Translations under genes and position numbers: made by a program
The notes under the pieces: model-generated
Told to the model about the DNA's origin: nothing
Seen by the model: the letters and a program-made list of their open reading frames with translations, nothing else
The model's database searches: none
NCBI RefSeq assembly: GCF_900048895.1
Contig: NZ_LT160640.1
Location: 1,256,758-1,320,757 of the forward strand
Direction: 5' to 3'
Length of the DNA: 64,000 bases
DNA from: Neglectibacter timonensis
Lineage (GTDB): Bacteria; Bacillota; Clostridia; Oscillospirales; Acutalibacteraceae
In this document: positions 57,487-62,521 of the stretch, piece after piece
Layout: each line of letters starts with the position of its first letter
Numbering within the stretch: the stretch's first letter is position 1

Positions 57487-58248
57487 TTATGCAACCGGGT
57501 TCTCTGTCTGCCTGCAGAGGGATATTCTTTTCGCCTGAGGGATTTTTTCCGCTTTTTCCCGCCTGTCCCTTTCTTCCCGCTTTTTCATATAGCAGCGGTA
57601 CAGCAGAATTCCCAGACCGCTCAGAACGGCGGTAGCGGCAAACACGATAACGGCAAAGAGGTAATTCTGGGTGCCCAAGGCGTCCCCGCCGATAGTGGAG
57701 GTGATTACCGAAGGAATTCTCGCCGTGAGGGTGATAAAAATCCAGAAGGAAAGCTTCATCGGTGTAAGCCCCACAATATAGGTCATTACATCCTTGGGCG
57801 TTCCTGGAATCAGAAACAGGATATAGGCAATCAGATTCAGCCGTTTTTCATTTTGCAGGAATTTCAGGGAACGTATCTTTTCCTCGGACACGAACAGGGC
57901 GACAAAGCGCATGCCGAATTTTTTGACGAACAGAAACACGGTGACGCTACCCAGCAGCGCCCCCAGAAGGCAGAGGCCCGTACCCTCCACCGCGCCAAAG
58001 GCATAGCCCGCGCCGATTTCCAGAGGCTCTCCGGGAATGAACGCCACCACGATTTGAAACGCCATCATGCCTATGAACGCCAGCCTGCCCCAGGCCCCGC
58101 TGGCGTCTACCCAGGCGCGGAATTTCTCCGGCTCGGATACAAATTCCACCATCGGTTTTCCCACAAACCAGCATATGGCGCCGGTAAAAATCAAAAACAC
58201 CGCCAGACTGGCTACCGCCGCGATCCTTTTCTTTTTGTCTCTTTTCAT
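57487..58248 (-). CDS. TVP38/TMEM64-family (VTT domain) membrane protein
   Basis: 253 residues from the ATG at 58248 (GGGAGAG eight bases upstream). VTT/DedA-like core: FIPGEPLEIGAGYAFG, GALLGSVTVFLFVKKFG and the re-entrant PGTPKDVMTYIVGLTPM. About five to six membrane segments and a basic C-terminal tail. Relatives act in lipid scrambling or membrane homeostasis. Single gene; I see no clean promoter. Confidence 0.87.
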   Translation of the reverse strand: MKRDKKKRIAAVASLAVFLIFTGAICWFVGKPMVEFVSEPEKFRAWVDASGAWGRLAFIGMMAFQIVVAFIPGEPLEIGAGYAFGAVEGTGLCLLGALLGSVTVFLFVKKFGMRFVALFVSEEKIRSLKFLQNEKRLNLIAYILFLIPGTPKDVMTYIVGLTPMKLSFWIFITLTARIPSVITSTIGGDALGTQNYLFAVIVFAATAVLSGLGILLYRCYMKKREERDRREKAEKIPQAKRISLCRQTENPVA

Positions 58249-58745
58249 GCCGTATTCTCTCCCTTTTCCTGTTTTCCAAAATTCCCTGGCAGTGGGAAGC
58301 CTCCCGTGGGCCGTCAAGTACAACTGCACCCCTGACTTCCTGTATTGTCAGTAACCGCCGAGCGAATCATGCCGGATGGCCCGGCGCGGGTTTTTACAAC
58401 GTTTCCTATAATATAGGGGAAGAATATCAAATTTTCCTCAAAAGTTCCTTACGAAAAGCTTGCGATATCTTACAGAACTGAAAAAGAAGCTTGTATCAAA
58501 GCTCCTACTCCCGGAGCATTCGCTGCCCGCAGGCTGCCTCTGTGTTTTTTATGATGGTTGCGCCTCAGCCGAAGTATTTTTCAGCGCCGTTATTCCGCCA
58601 AAGGAGCCGCCGCATTCATCCGGAGTTGAGCTGTCTCGCCTGCACAGAAAGAAAGGGGCGCCGCAAAATCCCCCTTTTGCGGCGTCCCTCCTGAACATCT
58701 ACTTGCATGCTTCCCGGAACAGTTCTCTTGTATTGGCTTCCCACT
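58249..58745. other. 500-nt gene-free stretch upstream of the TVP38-family gene
   Basis: Holds a strong hairpin (about 58656-58668 with 58775-type arms inside 58655-58688: GGGCGCCGCAAAA and TTTTGCGGCGTCCC) and an AT-rich tract near 58405-58440 that may carry a promoter. A 95-codon plus-strand frame at 58460-58747 lacks a ribosome binding site and looks random. I see no gene. Confidence 0.4.
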
Positions 58746-58781
58746 AAAAAACCGTTGAGGCTTCAGGAGAAACGGTTTTTT
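58746..58781 (-). terminator. Terminator of bilR
   Basis: AAAAAACCGTT (58746-58756) with AACGGTTTTTT (58771-58781), T run on the minus strand, 25 nt past the stop. Confidence 0.82.
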
Positions 58782-58806
58782 ATCCAATTGGCTTAGCCGC
58801 TCCCCC

Positions 58807-60750
58807 TTATATGACGCTTGCCGCGTCGTAGGCGCTGTGAACGGCCTGGCAGAGATCGGCCGGGCTTCCTGCGCAGTCTCCCACCCGGATCACGGAAATT
58901 CCGGACGCTTCCAGCTGCTCTGAAGCAAAGGCTTCCGGACTGGCGCCCGCCGCCATGACAACAAAACTGCAGGGAAGCTCCTTTTCTGTTCCATCCTCCA
59001 CCGTGCAGATCACTGAACGGGAGGTGATCCGGCTGAGCTTATGGCCTGTCAGCAGCCTGACGCCTGCCAGCTCCAGCTCCCTTAGCAGGATGGGGCGTAC
59101 CGTATCCGATTCCTCCTTTGCAATGGCGTCCAGCATCTCCACGATTGTGATGTTGCATCCACGGGACGCCAGCAGTTCCGCCGTCTCCACGCCTACCAAG
59201 CCGCCTCCTATTACGATGACCTCACCGCCGCACATCTGCCGGCCGGAAAGCACCTTCCAAGCGTCCAACACATGAGGAAGCTGCGCTCCCTCCACAGGGA
59301 TCAAACGGTTATGCGCTCCCACCGCCACAATCACACAATCCGGTTCGAGTTCAATCAACTCCTCCTGAGTGGGAACCCTGCCCAGGAAGAATTCCACCCC
59401 CAGCCTCTGCGCCTCCTGCATAAGGAAATCTCCGGCCCGCATCACTTCATGCTTCCGGGGAGGTTCGCTGGCAATGCCCAGCTGCCCACCCAGACACAAT
59501 TCCCTTTCAAAGAGCGTGACACGATGCCCCCGCAGGGCTGCCACCCTGGCAGCTTCCAGTCCTGCCGGACCTCCGCCCACCACCGCCACGCGTTTCCTGG
59601 CCGCGGCAGGCTCCAGCCTTTTTTTCGCCTCATATCCATTTTCTGCATTGAGCACACAGCTGATAAACCTGCGCTGCTGAACGGCGTCAGTACAGCCCTT
59701 GTTGCACATGATACACTGGCGGATGCGTTCCGGTACGCCCTCCTGCAGCTTTTCCCCCCAATCCGGATCGCACAGCAGCGGACGGCCCAACCCCACCATA
59801 TCGCAGCAGCCGTTTTCCAGCATAGCTTCCGCATATTCCGGCGAGACGATGCGTCCCACCGTGGAGACCGGTACGCTCACCGCCTCTTTGACCGCCCTGG
59901 AGTAGGGTTCAAAAAAGCCGTAGGGTTCGGCGCCCATCGGCGGGATGGTATCGCCCATATTCCCCGTGTGGTTTGCCTGGGCCACATGGAAAAAGTCTAC
60001 GCCCGCCTGTTCCAGACGCCTGGCAAGCTCCACCGCCTCCTCCGGTTCCAATCCCCCCTTGCCTACCCGTTCCGCCGTCAGCGGATTCACAGAGATCACG
60101 GGCAGCTTGTACTCCAGCAGCAGCCCCGGGACTGCTTCCCGCAGGGTTTCCACCACCTGCAGGGCAAAACGGATGCGGTTCCCGAAGGAGCCTCCGTAGG
60201 CGTCCGCACGGTGATTGAGCACTTTGGAGCACAGCGCCCCCACCAGCCGGTCCCCGTGGATTTCAATGACGTCCACGCCTGCTTTTTCCGCCCTTTTGGC
60301 ACAGGCGGCATAGCTTTTCAGCACCTCTCCAAGCTGGCTCTCCGACACCTCGTCGATAAAGTGAGTCATGTCATAGTGCAGCTTCTTTCTGGCTTCCTCC
60401 ATATTCCCCTTCTGAAAAAGCTTCGTCAAACCCGGAACGTCATATTCAGGATAAAAAAGCTGGATAGCCAGACGGGCGCCAAAGCTGTGCACCGCCTCTG
60501 CGAGCCTTTGGAAACCTGGAATCTGCCGGTCGTCAAACAGGCGGGGCGTTGGGGAGAAGGTGCTGATGGGCGCCACATCCCCCAAGACAATATAACCGGT
60601 CCCGCCCTCCGCCAGGCGCTTATAAAAGTGAAAGCTCTGCTCCCCGATAGAACCGTCCCTCTCCTCATAGCCGGTAGTCAGAGGCGGGAACATAATACGG
60701 TTTGGAAACGTGACATTTTTAATTTTGATCGGTTCCAGCAATTTCATCAT
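58807..60750 (-). CDS. bilR: Bilirubin reductase BilR (old-yellow-enzyme family, FMN/[4Fe-4S]/FAD)
   Basis: 647 residues. An FMN TIM barrel (1-340), a [4Fe-4S] motif (Cys346, 349, 353, 365 in CIMCNKGC...C), and FAD/NAD(P) domains (VAVVGGGPAGLEAARVA; VIVIGGGLVGVETAELL), the layout of 2,4-dienoyl-CoA reductase. Where those enzymes have the HAHGYL active-site segment, this one reads EIHGDRLVG. The Asp-Arg pair is residues 166-167 if counted from the second ATG (60747), which agrees with the D166/R167 pair reported as diagnostic for the gut bilirubin reductase BilR. The divergent MarR and flavodoxin genes match bilQ and bilS. It reduces bilirubin towards urobilinogen. Start at 60750 or 60747 (GGAAGG upstream). 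Confidence 0.85.
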   Translation of the reverse strand: MMKLLEPIKIKNVTFPNRIMFPPLTTGYEERDGSIGEQSFHFYKRLAEGGTGYIVLGDVAPISTFSPTPRLFDDRQIPGFQRLAEAVHSFGARLAIQLFYPEYDVPGLTKLFQKGNMEEARKKLHYDMTHFIDEVSESQLGEVLKSYAACAKRAEKAGVDVIEIHGDRLVGALCSKVLNHRADAYGGSFGNRIRFALQVVETLREAVPGLLLEYKLPVISVNPLTAERVGKGGLEPEEAVELARRLEQAGVDFFHVAQANHTGNMGDTIPPMGAEPYGFFEPYSRAVKEAVSVPVSTVGRIVSPEYAEAMLENGCCDMVGLGRPLLCDPDWGEKLQEGVPERIRQCIMCNKGCTDAVQQRRFISCVLNAENGYEAKKRLEPAAARKRVAVVGGGPAGLEAARVAALRGHRVTLFERELCLGGQLGIASEPPRKHEVMRAGDFLMQEAQRLGVEFFLGRVPTQEELIELEPDCVIVAVGAHNRLIPVEGAQLPHVLDAWKVLSGRQMCGGEVIVIGGGLVGVETAELLASRGCNITIVEMLDAIAKEESDTVRPILLRELELAGVRLLTGHKLSRITSRSVICTVEDGTEKELPCSFVVMAAGASPEAFASEQLEASGISVIRVGDCAGSPADLCQAVHSAYDAASVI

Positions 60751-60827
60751 AGCAGCTGCCCTTCCTTTCTGAACATTCAAACCGCGGCGGCTCCAAACAC
60801 GACGCTAGAGCCTTTTTTCTTATGTCC

Positions 60828-60856
60828 ACTATAGTTCGATTATTTGACAAAGTCAA
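60828..60856 (-). promoter_or_regulatory. Promoter of bilR
   Basis: Minus strand TTGACT (60851-60856), 17-bp spacer, TATAGT (60828-60833). Confidence 0.78.
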
Positions 60857-60872
60857 GAAATCATTGTAGAAT
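60844..60872 (+). promoter_or_regulatory. Promoter of bilQ-bilS, sharing a palindrome with the bilR promoter
   Basis: Plus strand TTGACA (60844-60849), 17-bp spacer, TAGAAT (60867-60872). The two -35 boxes form the palindrome TTGACAAAGTCAA (60844-60856), a likely operator for BilQ, so one bound dimer could block both directions. Confidence 0.78.
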
Positions 60873-60906
60873 AAGTATAGAAAAATAGGGAGATTGAGAA
60901 AAACAA

Positions 60907-61350
60907 ATGAAAAAAACGCTATCTCTTGCCGTAACCGTACTATACAGGGATTTTTCCGACTTCTGTGAAAGCATCCTGCAGGAATCCGGGCTGTCCAAGG
61001 GTCTGCTCTTTTTTCTGCTTTATATTGGAAAACATCCGGGCTGTACACACGGGGAGGTTTCCGCCTACCTGGGAAGCGATAATGGACATACGACACGATG
61101 TGTCAACAGGATGATTGAGGGAGGATTTGTGCGCCGGGACGCTTCTGCCCTGGACCGGCGCGTACGCCGGCTGTGGCTGACGCCCCAGGGAGAAAAAACC
61201 TTTCACCGCTGCTATAATCTTTTTCTGCAGTGGGACCGGGAACGGTTTGGCAATGTACCGGAAAAAACAAAAACACAGGCGCGTCTGGCCCTAGCGGCTC
61301 TTCTGGAGGAAAGCGGGTGCTTCCCGCAGTTGAGTAGTGAAAGCCCATAA
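60907..61350 (+). CDS. bilQ: MarR-family regulator BilQ
   Basis: 147 residues. Winged helix with HTH segment CTHGEVSAYLGSDNGHTTRC VNRMIEGGF (about 48-76) and wing VRRDASALDRRVRRLWLTPQG (the DxR wing motif DRRVRR). MarR dimers usually repress and release DNA on binding a small phenolic or hydrophobic ligand; a tetrapyrrole or a toxic product is a natural guess here. GGGAGA precedes the ATG. It is divergent from bilR and 15 nt upstream of bilS. Confidence 0.85.
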   Translation: MKKTLSLAVTVLYRDFSDFCESILQESGLSKGLLFFLLYIGKHPGCTHGEVSAYLGSDNGHTTRCVNRMIEGGFVRRDASALDRRVRRLWLTPQGEKTFHRCYNLFLQWDRERFGNVPEKTKTQARLALAALLEESGCFPQLSSESP

Positions 61351-61365
61351 CCGGAGGTGTGTTAG

Positions 61366-61884
61366 ATGAAAGCCTACAAGTATTCCATTGTCTACAGCAG
61401 CCGTACTGGAAACACTGAATTTCTGGCCCGGGCAATCCGGGAAGCGCTGCCTCAGGAAAGCTGTGAATATTTCGGTCCTGCAGAACGCAGGGCTTTGAAA
61501 TCCTCCCTGCTCTTTATCGGCTTCTGGACTGATAAGGGCGCCTGCGACAGCGACACTTCTCTTTTTCTTAACGCCGTGCACAACAAGCGGATTTTTCTGT
61601 TCGGCACTGCGGGCTTCAGCGGCAATGATTCCTATTATGAGGCCATCCTGACTCAGGTGAAAGAGCTAATAGACCCTTCCAACCGGATTCTGGGTGCTTT
61701 TCTGTGCCAGGGTAAAATGCCGGCTCCGGTACGCAGGCGTTACGAGGAACTGCTGCGTCAAAATCCTGGCGACAGCAAGGTGCGCCAGCTGCTGGAAAAC
61801 TTTGACCGCGCAGCAGATCATCCCAACGCCGCGGACTGTGAAGCGCTGCTGCGATGTGTAGAGCAGGCGCTGAAAAAATTTTAA
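61366..61884 (+). CDS. bilS: Flavodoxin-like protein BilS
   Basis: 172 residues. Flavodoxin fold with the FMN-phosphate loop SSRTGNTEFLARAI at the N-terminus, a second loop IGFWTDKGACDSDT, and FGTAGFSGNDSYY. The C-terminal half is helical. In the bilirubin reductase system it is thought to deliver electrons to BilR. GGAGG lies ten bases before the ATG. Linked to bilQ as a two-gene unit and closed by a terminator. Confidence 0.83.
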   Translation: MKAYKYSIVYSSRTGNTEFLARAIREALPQESCEYFGPAERRALKSSLLFIGFWTDKGACDSDTSLFLNAVHNKRIFLFGTAGFSGNDSYYEAILTQVKELIDPSNRILGAFLCQGKMPAPVRRRYEELLRQNPGDSKVRQLLENFDRAADHPNAADCEALLRCVEQALKKF

Positions 61885-61935
61885 CCTTTCCGCAGAAGCA
61901 GAGAATCTGTGGCTGGCGCCTGAAGCAGCCGTATA

Positions 61936-61983
61936 AAAATGCCCCTGAATTTGGCCGAAGCAGGCCGCATTCAAGGGCATTTT
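61936..61983. terminator. Bidirectional terminator after bilS
   Basis: AAAATGCCCCTGAAT (61936-61950) with ATTCAAGGGCATTTT (61969-61983; one G-T pair) and an inner GGCC/GGCC stem. Confidence 0.82.
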
Positions 61984-62058
61984 CTGTTGGAACGCTTTTC
62001 TTGTCACCAGGTTCTGCCGTAACCTTCTGATACGGCAGCCCAGTTTTCTTCTCTTTTC

Positions 62059-62436
62059 TCAGGAAACCCTGGTAATGTACTGACAATACACATAGATATT
62101 CTGAATTTTTTTTGCCGCAACCCCATCCTCAGTCTCTACTTCGGGTTGGGTTTCCGACTTTGTGACATACAGCTTAATGGCAATGGCATCCTGACCGACA
62201 CGCATCTTCCTTACCGGCTTATAGGCGAAATCCCGCCGCTCTATCCCCACGTATTCATGCAGAACATCCTCAATGGACCGATCTGTAAAGCAGCGGAGAA
62301 TATCCTCGGTTTCATACATATCGATGATAGCCTTGGCCTCTTCAAAGCTGAGATTGGTGGAATGATAGTCTCCGGCCCCCACCACATACATGGTGCTGTT
62401 ATCGAGCAACAGCAAAGGTTCCTTCTTTTCTGGCAT
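62059..62436 (-). CDS. DUF1874-like protein (B116/ring-nuclease fold candidate)
   Basis: 125 residues from the ATG at 62436 (AAGGAGG upstream). The run LLLLDNSTMYVVGAG, then LSFEEAKAIIDMYE, SIEDVLHEYVGIE, and VGQDAIAIKL follows the order of conserved elements in the DUF1874 (STIV B116/YddF) family, some of which are viral ring nucleases that defeat type III CRISPR. The usual IGH catalytic segment is replaced by RCFT, so nuclease activity is doubtful. A weak match; it may be a distant relative or unrelated. Confidence 0.5.
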   Translation of the reverse strand: MPEKKEPLLLLDNSTMYVVGAGDYHSTNLSFEEAKAIIDMYETEDILRCFTDRSIEDVLHEYVGIERRDFAYKPVRKMRVGQDAIAIKLYVTKSETQPEVETEDGVAAKKIQNIYVYCQYITRVS

Positions 62437-62521
62437 AAGACAGACCTCCTTCTTGAAATGTTCTGAAAAGATTGACAAAGCATTGACAGATTGCACATGT
62501 CATATATTTATCATCAAATTC

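Follow-up and report, generated by a model that had tools for sequence, protein, structure and literature searches.

Does the divergent gene set at this locus form a bilirubin-reductase system, and could one operator control it in both directions? The reduction of bilirubin by gut bacteria is relevant to human health, and our literature search, within the partial texts it covered, found nothing on how the reductase gene bilR is switched on. The retrieved parts of Hall et al. (2024, PMC10769871) describe three operon versions: bilQ-bilR-bilS or bilR-bilS with a short BilR, and a long bilR alone, with bilQ named there only as a MarR family gene. We analysed a 64,000-nucleotide stretch of Neglectibacter timonensis DNA (the window), in which a bilR gene points away from bilQ and bilS (Table 1).

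Table 1. Features of the bil locus; positions are counted from the first letter of the window.
Feature	Position	Strand	Basis or detail
Terminator-like hairpin after bilR	58659..58684	-	10-pair stem, T-rich tail
bilR, long-form bilirubin reductase, 647 aa	58807..60750	-	NF045599, NF045592, PF00724 + PF07992, motifs, tree
bilR promoter	60828..60856	-	-35 TTGACT (60856-60851), 17 bp, -10 TATAGT (60833-60828)
Proposed BilQ operator TTGACAAAGTCAA, TTGAC-AAA-GTCAA	60844..60856		comparative motif
bilQ-bilS promoter	60844..60872	+	-35 TTGACA (60844-60849), 17 bp, -10 TAGAAT (60867-60872)
bilQ, MarR-family regulator, 147 aa	60907..61350	+	NF045593, MarR Pfam
bilS, flavodoxin-like protein, 172 aa	61366..61884	+	NF045594, PF12641 (Flavodoxin_3)
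Inverted repeat after bilS, 21 nt, possible terminator	61936..61983	+	second arm ends TTTT

The BilR protein scored 993 bits against the long-form bilirubin reductase model NF045599 and 502 bits against the BilR N-domain model NF045592, above the NCBIfam cut-offs of 750 and 425, respectively, and its Pfam domains were Oxidored_FMN (PF00724) and Pyr_redox_2 (PF07992). It combines an FMN TIM-barrel carrying HGDR with its own Fe-S/FAD/NAD(P) half; a 4Fe-4S cysteine pattern (C-x2-C-x3-C-x11-C) begins at C346, and two dinucleotide-binding motifs lie at 392 and 515. The gene starts at 60750 from the first ATG (647 aa) or at 60747 from the second (646 aa), and HGDR begins at residue 165 or spans H164-R167, respectively; the Asp-Arg pair that the sequence-only reading had placed at 166-167 from the second ATG is D166/R167. 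That reading also held that EIHGDR-LVG replaces the HAHGYL segment of dienoyl-CoA reductases, and the alignment agreed, showing E(I/V)HGAHGYL at this place in five related reductases (L010, L012, L014, L019 and L025). HGDR was present in 24 of the 26 BilR-clade rows (the window and 25 others). Among the MAG proteins of the clade, HGGR replaces HGDR in L075 (6001-8022), and YGDR replaces it in L076 (6001-7698), where the match covers residues 2-571 only.

In a 37-row tree, the 26 BilR rows grouped together with support of 100/100, outside 11 rows that are sampled OYE-family loci rather than named dienoyl-CoA reductases; the five confirmed BilR proteins given in the retrieved parts of Hall et al. 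(PMC10769871) are not among the rows. Short BilR formed one group (100/99), and the window protein fell inside the long group (99/99), nearest to that of Clostridium sp. CS001 (L071; 67% over 361 N-domain columns). Clustering outside the BilR clade had been named beforehand as the outcome that would speak against the assignment, and the protein was found within it. These results indicate that, by its sequence, the window BilR is a member of the BilR family and of its long form. The curated models, the tree and the active-site alignment all speak against an ordinary enoate or dienoyl-CoA reductase, and this reading was rejected. The best match among solved structures was 1ps9, a 2,4-dienoyl-CoA reductase, with which BilR is also compared in the retrieved text of Hall et al. 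(PMC10769871).

The natural substrate of such an HGDR ene-reductase might instead be another linear tetrapyrrole or related compound, e.g., biliverdin, with bilirubin secondary. According to partial texts, biliverdin too is converted by C. difficile BilR-S expressed in E. coli (PMC13252198), and some bilR genes occur in Flavobacteriales from water and soil (PMC10769871). The window protein, however, exceeds both cut-offs for bilirubin reductase and groups with the long BilR in the tree, neither of which speaks to substrate, and we regard this alternative as quite unlikely.

According to the retrieved part of a preprint (PMC13252198), methine bridges are the target of BilR and vinyl groups that of BilV. 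The bilR-bilV operon in the same partial source shares the BilR family with the window, but a BilV-like second full-length OYE protein had no match in the window's own genome; the second-best BilR match there was a 405-residue frame (L002) that aligned along the first half at 31% and has AHGYL in its active site. Since no full-length BilV-like protein was matched, the expected product of BilR would be divinyl-urobilinogen. BilV-like paralogues with an AHAH motif were seen near BilR in L071 (2838-4718), L072 (7966-9891) and L069 (10666-12555), and in L071 the BilR and BilV-like genes are divergent.

The MarR and flavodoxin-like neighbours had been taken for bilQ and bilS, and both names were supported, with scores of 139 bits for BilQ (NF045593; cut-off 125) and 212 bits for BilS (NF045594; cut-off 155) against the NCBIfam models. 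The two genes are separated by 15 bp, bilR and bilQ by 156 bp of intergenic DNA, and the divergent bilR / bilQ-bilS set was recovered with the coordinates and strands first given for it. In a tree of bilR-linked and stand-alone BilS, the window BilS sat on an end branch of 0.87, within no supported group. The bil block has an inverted repeat on either side; the one around the hairpin after bilR spans 58654-58689 and was listed by the terminator scan, which found 8 such sites versus 4.8 in shuffles and is weak by itself, and the repeat after bilS was not among the sites of that scan.

The motif TTGACNNNGTCAA had one match in the window, at 60844-60856, with 0.06 expected. The promoters on either side agreed with the consensus at 11/12 positions (plus strand) and 10/12 positions (minus strand), and a promoter scan of 58200-62200 returned 6 sites versus 2.0 in shuffles, with the plus promoter ranked first and the minus promoter joint second. 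The two arms of the operator palindrome are the two opposite -35 boxes. The sequence-only reading had described these boxes as facing each other and overlapping; the results showed that they do face each other but do not overlap, one base (60850) separating them.

We compared this layout with 25 other BilR loci, comprising six named loci, one plasmid-labelled record, one locus of the same family and 17 from an order sample of 394 genomes (14 above the model cut-off and 3 below). Twelve of these loci are long and 13 short, the incomplete L076 being classed as long by its place in the tree. Within the stretches examined, some of them cut by contig ends (L074, L154 and L159 among them), the short loci carried bilQ-bilR-bilS on one strand in 7/13, bilR-bilS in 1/13 and neither bilQ nor bilS in 5/13, while the other long loci carried bilS in 0/12 and bilQ in 1/12 (L157, same strand). 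The weak hit of the BilS model in L127 (16.9 bits, E 6.6e-4), which lies on the opposite strand some 3.4 kb away from bilR, was left out of these counts. The divergent arrangement occurred in none of the nine other linked sets. By these counts, bilQ and bilS accompany short BilR, and the window alone in the sample has a long bilR beside bilS and alone has the divergent order. No further long BilR above the cut-off was found in a phylum sample (1/299, the window's own), and no further BilQ at E <= 1e-32 in another (1/388, again the window's own).

Against the systems in the retrieved parts of PMC10769871, the window resembles the bilQRS operon of Clostridium symbiosum and Clostridioides difficile in having bilQ, bilR and bilS together and HGDR, but BilR is short there, whereas the long BilR of the window points away from bilQ-bilS; the published definition of bilQRS, a short BilR with bilQ and bilS, thus does not describe it. 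The same-strand order of the three genes is taken here from the seven retrieved loci rather than from published operon sequences. The long bilR of Ruminococcus gnavus likewise encodes TIM-barrel, flavodoxin-like and NADP(H)-binding domains but is reported as bilR only (PMC10769871, in part), whereas in the window bilQ and bilS adjoin the long bilR with a proposed shared operator. The window layout is a fourth version besides the three in the retrieved parts of PMC10769871. Neither a BilQ operator nor a divergent bil layout was found in the partial texts of our literature search, and the layout may be in Dufault-Thompson et al. 2024 (PMC11669818).

The palindrome was first seen upstream of the bilQ of genome G375, as CTTGACAAAGTCAAGAAA with a second copy of the motif, and then upstream of bilQ-bilR-bilS sets; the last 17 letters of CTTGACAAAGTCAAGAAA also occur in the window. 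Fourteen bilQ genes scored above the cut-off (one from the window, one from G375, and 12 spread over 11 of the 17 BilR genomes). TTGAC-N3-GTCAA was found upstream of 10 of them exactly and of 12 with at most one mismatch, the window included, compared with 0.01 and 0.11 expected by first-order Markov controls; two pairs of the compared loci share one genus, and the loci are therefore not fully independent. Among MarR homologues below the cut-off, none of the 10 that were available as loci, from many matches, had the box at up to one mismatch. Two bilQ genes lacked it at this level: that of G999 has a site with two mismatches, for which the expected number is 1.6 of 14, and that of L157 (G894), the only other one beside a long bilR, has no site at up to two mismatches. 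In 317,304 bases of 26 loci, with the window excluded, each of the 13 exact sites immediately preceded bilQ, or bilR-bilS in the case of L147. A further set of other loci, 600,795 bases that partly repeat the 26, held only two exact sites away from bil loci (L038 and L064).

Thirteen sites with at most one mismatch (12 bilQ promoters including the window's, and the bilR promoter of L147) were compared for geometry. The box covered the -35 at all 13, and a -10 lay 16-17 bp away with 5/6 matches at 12 sites and 4/6 at one. A second box followed 27 or 28 bp further on at 7/13 sites; the window operator is a single copy, as at 6/13 sites, and is without the outer C of all 12 other sites (TTTGAC versus CTTGAC). 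Half of the motif could be promoter alone, since TTGAC also represents the -35 consensus. Taken together, the comparative evidence makes binding of BilQ to the palindrome likely, and TTGACAAAGTCAA is probably the BilQ operator; one shared operator for both directions, at first a guess from one sequence, has gained strong comparative support. An operator motif common to bilQ genes is put forward here as a feature of BilQ and does not belong to its published definition.

The partnership of BilQ-BilS with bilR is not obligatory. Among 398 genomes of the family, BilS was above its cut-off in 18 and BilR in 2, both together in the window genome only; the 17 other BilS genomes (NF045594; loci L077-L082 and L084-L094) had no BilR above the cut-off, which means that BilS need not concern bilirubin. 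G375 (93% complete) is the only one of these 17 with BilQ beside BilS, and in G999 and G894 a BilQ-BilS pair stands apart from the long bilR, so that the pairs in these three genomes mark BilQ-BilS as a recurrent unit. These observations are what would be expected if BilQ-BilS were a general redox module unrelated to pigment that came to lie beside a long bilR by chance. However, bilQ, bilR and bilS stand together in the same 7/13 short loci, where the box is exact in 6/7 and has one mismatch in 1/7, and in the order sample BilS was above the cut-off in 14 of the 17 other genomes with BilR; we therefore consider a chance association very unlikely. A match to the BilS model alone points only weakly to bilirubin metabolism, and the name of NF045594 may be too specific.

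Within the genus, BilR (E <= 1e-100) was found in 1/29 genomes, the window's own, and is thus restricted to one species of this sample, in which 20/29 genomes reach a completeness of 90% or more and do not exceed 5% contamination. The block's neighbour on the left, a VTT-domain protein, was found in 13 other genomes. In 5/13 of these congener loci the right neighbour (62059-62496 in the window) lay 155-267 bp from the left one with no bil gene matched between them, compared with a flank-to-flank distance of about 3.8 kb in the window. The right neighbour was absent from the examined stretch in the remaining 8/13, even within 15-19 kb in G632, G708, G515 and G702. The simplest reading is that the block was probably gained by transfer, and loss elsewhere in the genus may be another origin of this distribution. 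No clear insertion-element ends were seen in the repeats around the block, and viral contigs gave no match to BilR or BilQ in scans whose reach is limited to close relatives. Plasmid records yielded one long BilR at E <= 1e-80 (OY725841.1, L127; Subdoligranulum variabile plasmid 7), no short BilR at E <= 1e-60, and one BilS-like gene (OY725877.1, L190; Subdoligranulum variabile plasmid 43) with no bilQ or exact operator beside it in 12.5 kb. Both plasmids come from one strain, and for this reason we do not claim mobility; the plasmid labels of these two records may belong to assembly pieces.

Overall, we consider it likely that the window holds a compact bilirubin-reduction island, probably horizontally acquired, in which a BilQ dimer on one box represses both bilR and bilQ-bilS and a ligand releases it. 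BilQ, as a MarR-type dimer, would bind TTGAC-AAA-GTCAA between the two promoters; lying across both -35 boxes, it would shut off bilR and its own operon together, a position that implies simultaneous control of both directions. A pigment-derived ligand, presumably bilirubin or a related tetrapyrrole, would then release BilQ from the operator. BilS would serve as an accessory flavodoxin of the type seen with short BilR, perhaps acting as a second electron donor; according to partial texts of PMC10769871 and PMC13252198, the long BilR of R. gnavus on its own, without BilS, was active in E. coli.

BilQ might alternatively control bilQ-bilS only; the bilR promoter would then share the palindrome's other half by coincidence and would be effectively constitutive or otherwise controlled. 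Besides the separate BilQ-BilS pairs of G375, G999 and G894, this agrees with the other long bilR loci, 11/12 of which have no adjacent bilQ and 0/12 an exact site. But the bilR promoter is near consensus and its -35 is an operator half, so a bound dimer would be expected to block it. Moreover, the window is the only site where a good promoter on the opposite strand, here the bilR promoter, takes the other half of the box as its -35: the opposite-strand -10 matches at 5/6 positions there, and at 2 to 4 positions, never equally well, at the 12 other sites. Control of bilQ-bilS only thus appears unlikely.

Returning to repression of both directions by BilQ, a more specific history is conceivable, which we offer tentatively and with rather less confidence: TTGAC-N3-GTCAA would be the BilQ box in general, and the long BilR would have been captured into the regulon by making the second arm its -35, so that one element represses enzyme and regulator and the captured gene replaces a short bilR lost between bilQ and bilS. 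Divergent MarR-regulated gene pairs in general have one operator between the divergent genes. The window shares this single operator but differs in that each arm of the palindrome doubles as a -35 box. A full-text literature search found no paper that has MarR together with both half-sites and a palindrome.

A conserved BilQ box provides a site that can be tested directly and allows members of the BilQ regulon to be sought in any genome; being small, the element could also serve as a reporter of the ligand that BilQ senses. In G984, BilQ probably acts in trans, judging from its box positions: the bilR-bilS pair has two BilQ boxes (L147 4968-5008, G984:C22), and bilQ lies on a different contig (G984:C34:112137-112523), with an exact box of its own and a near one.
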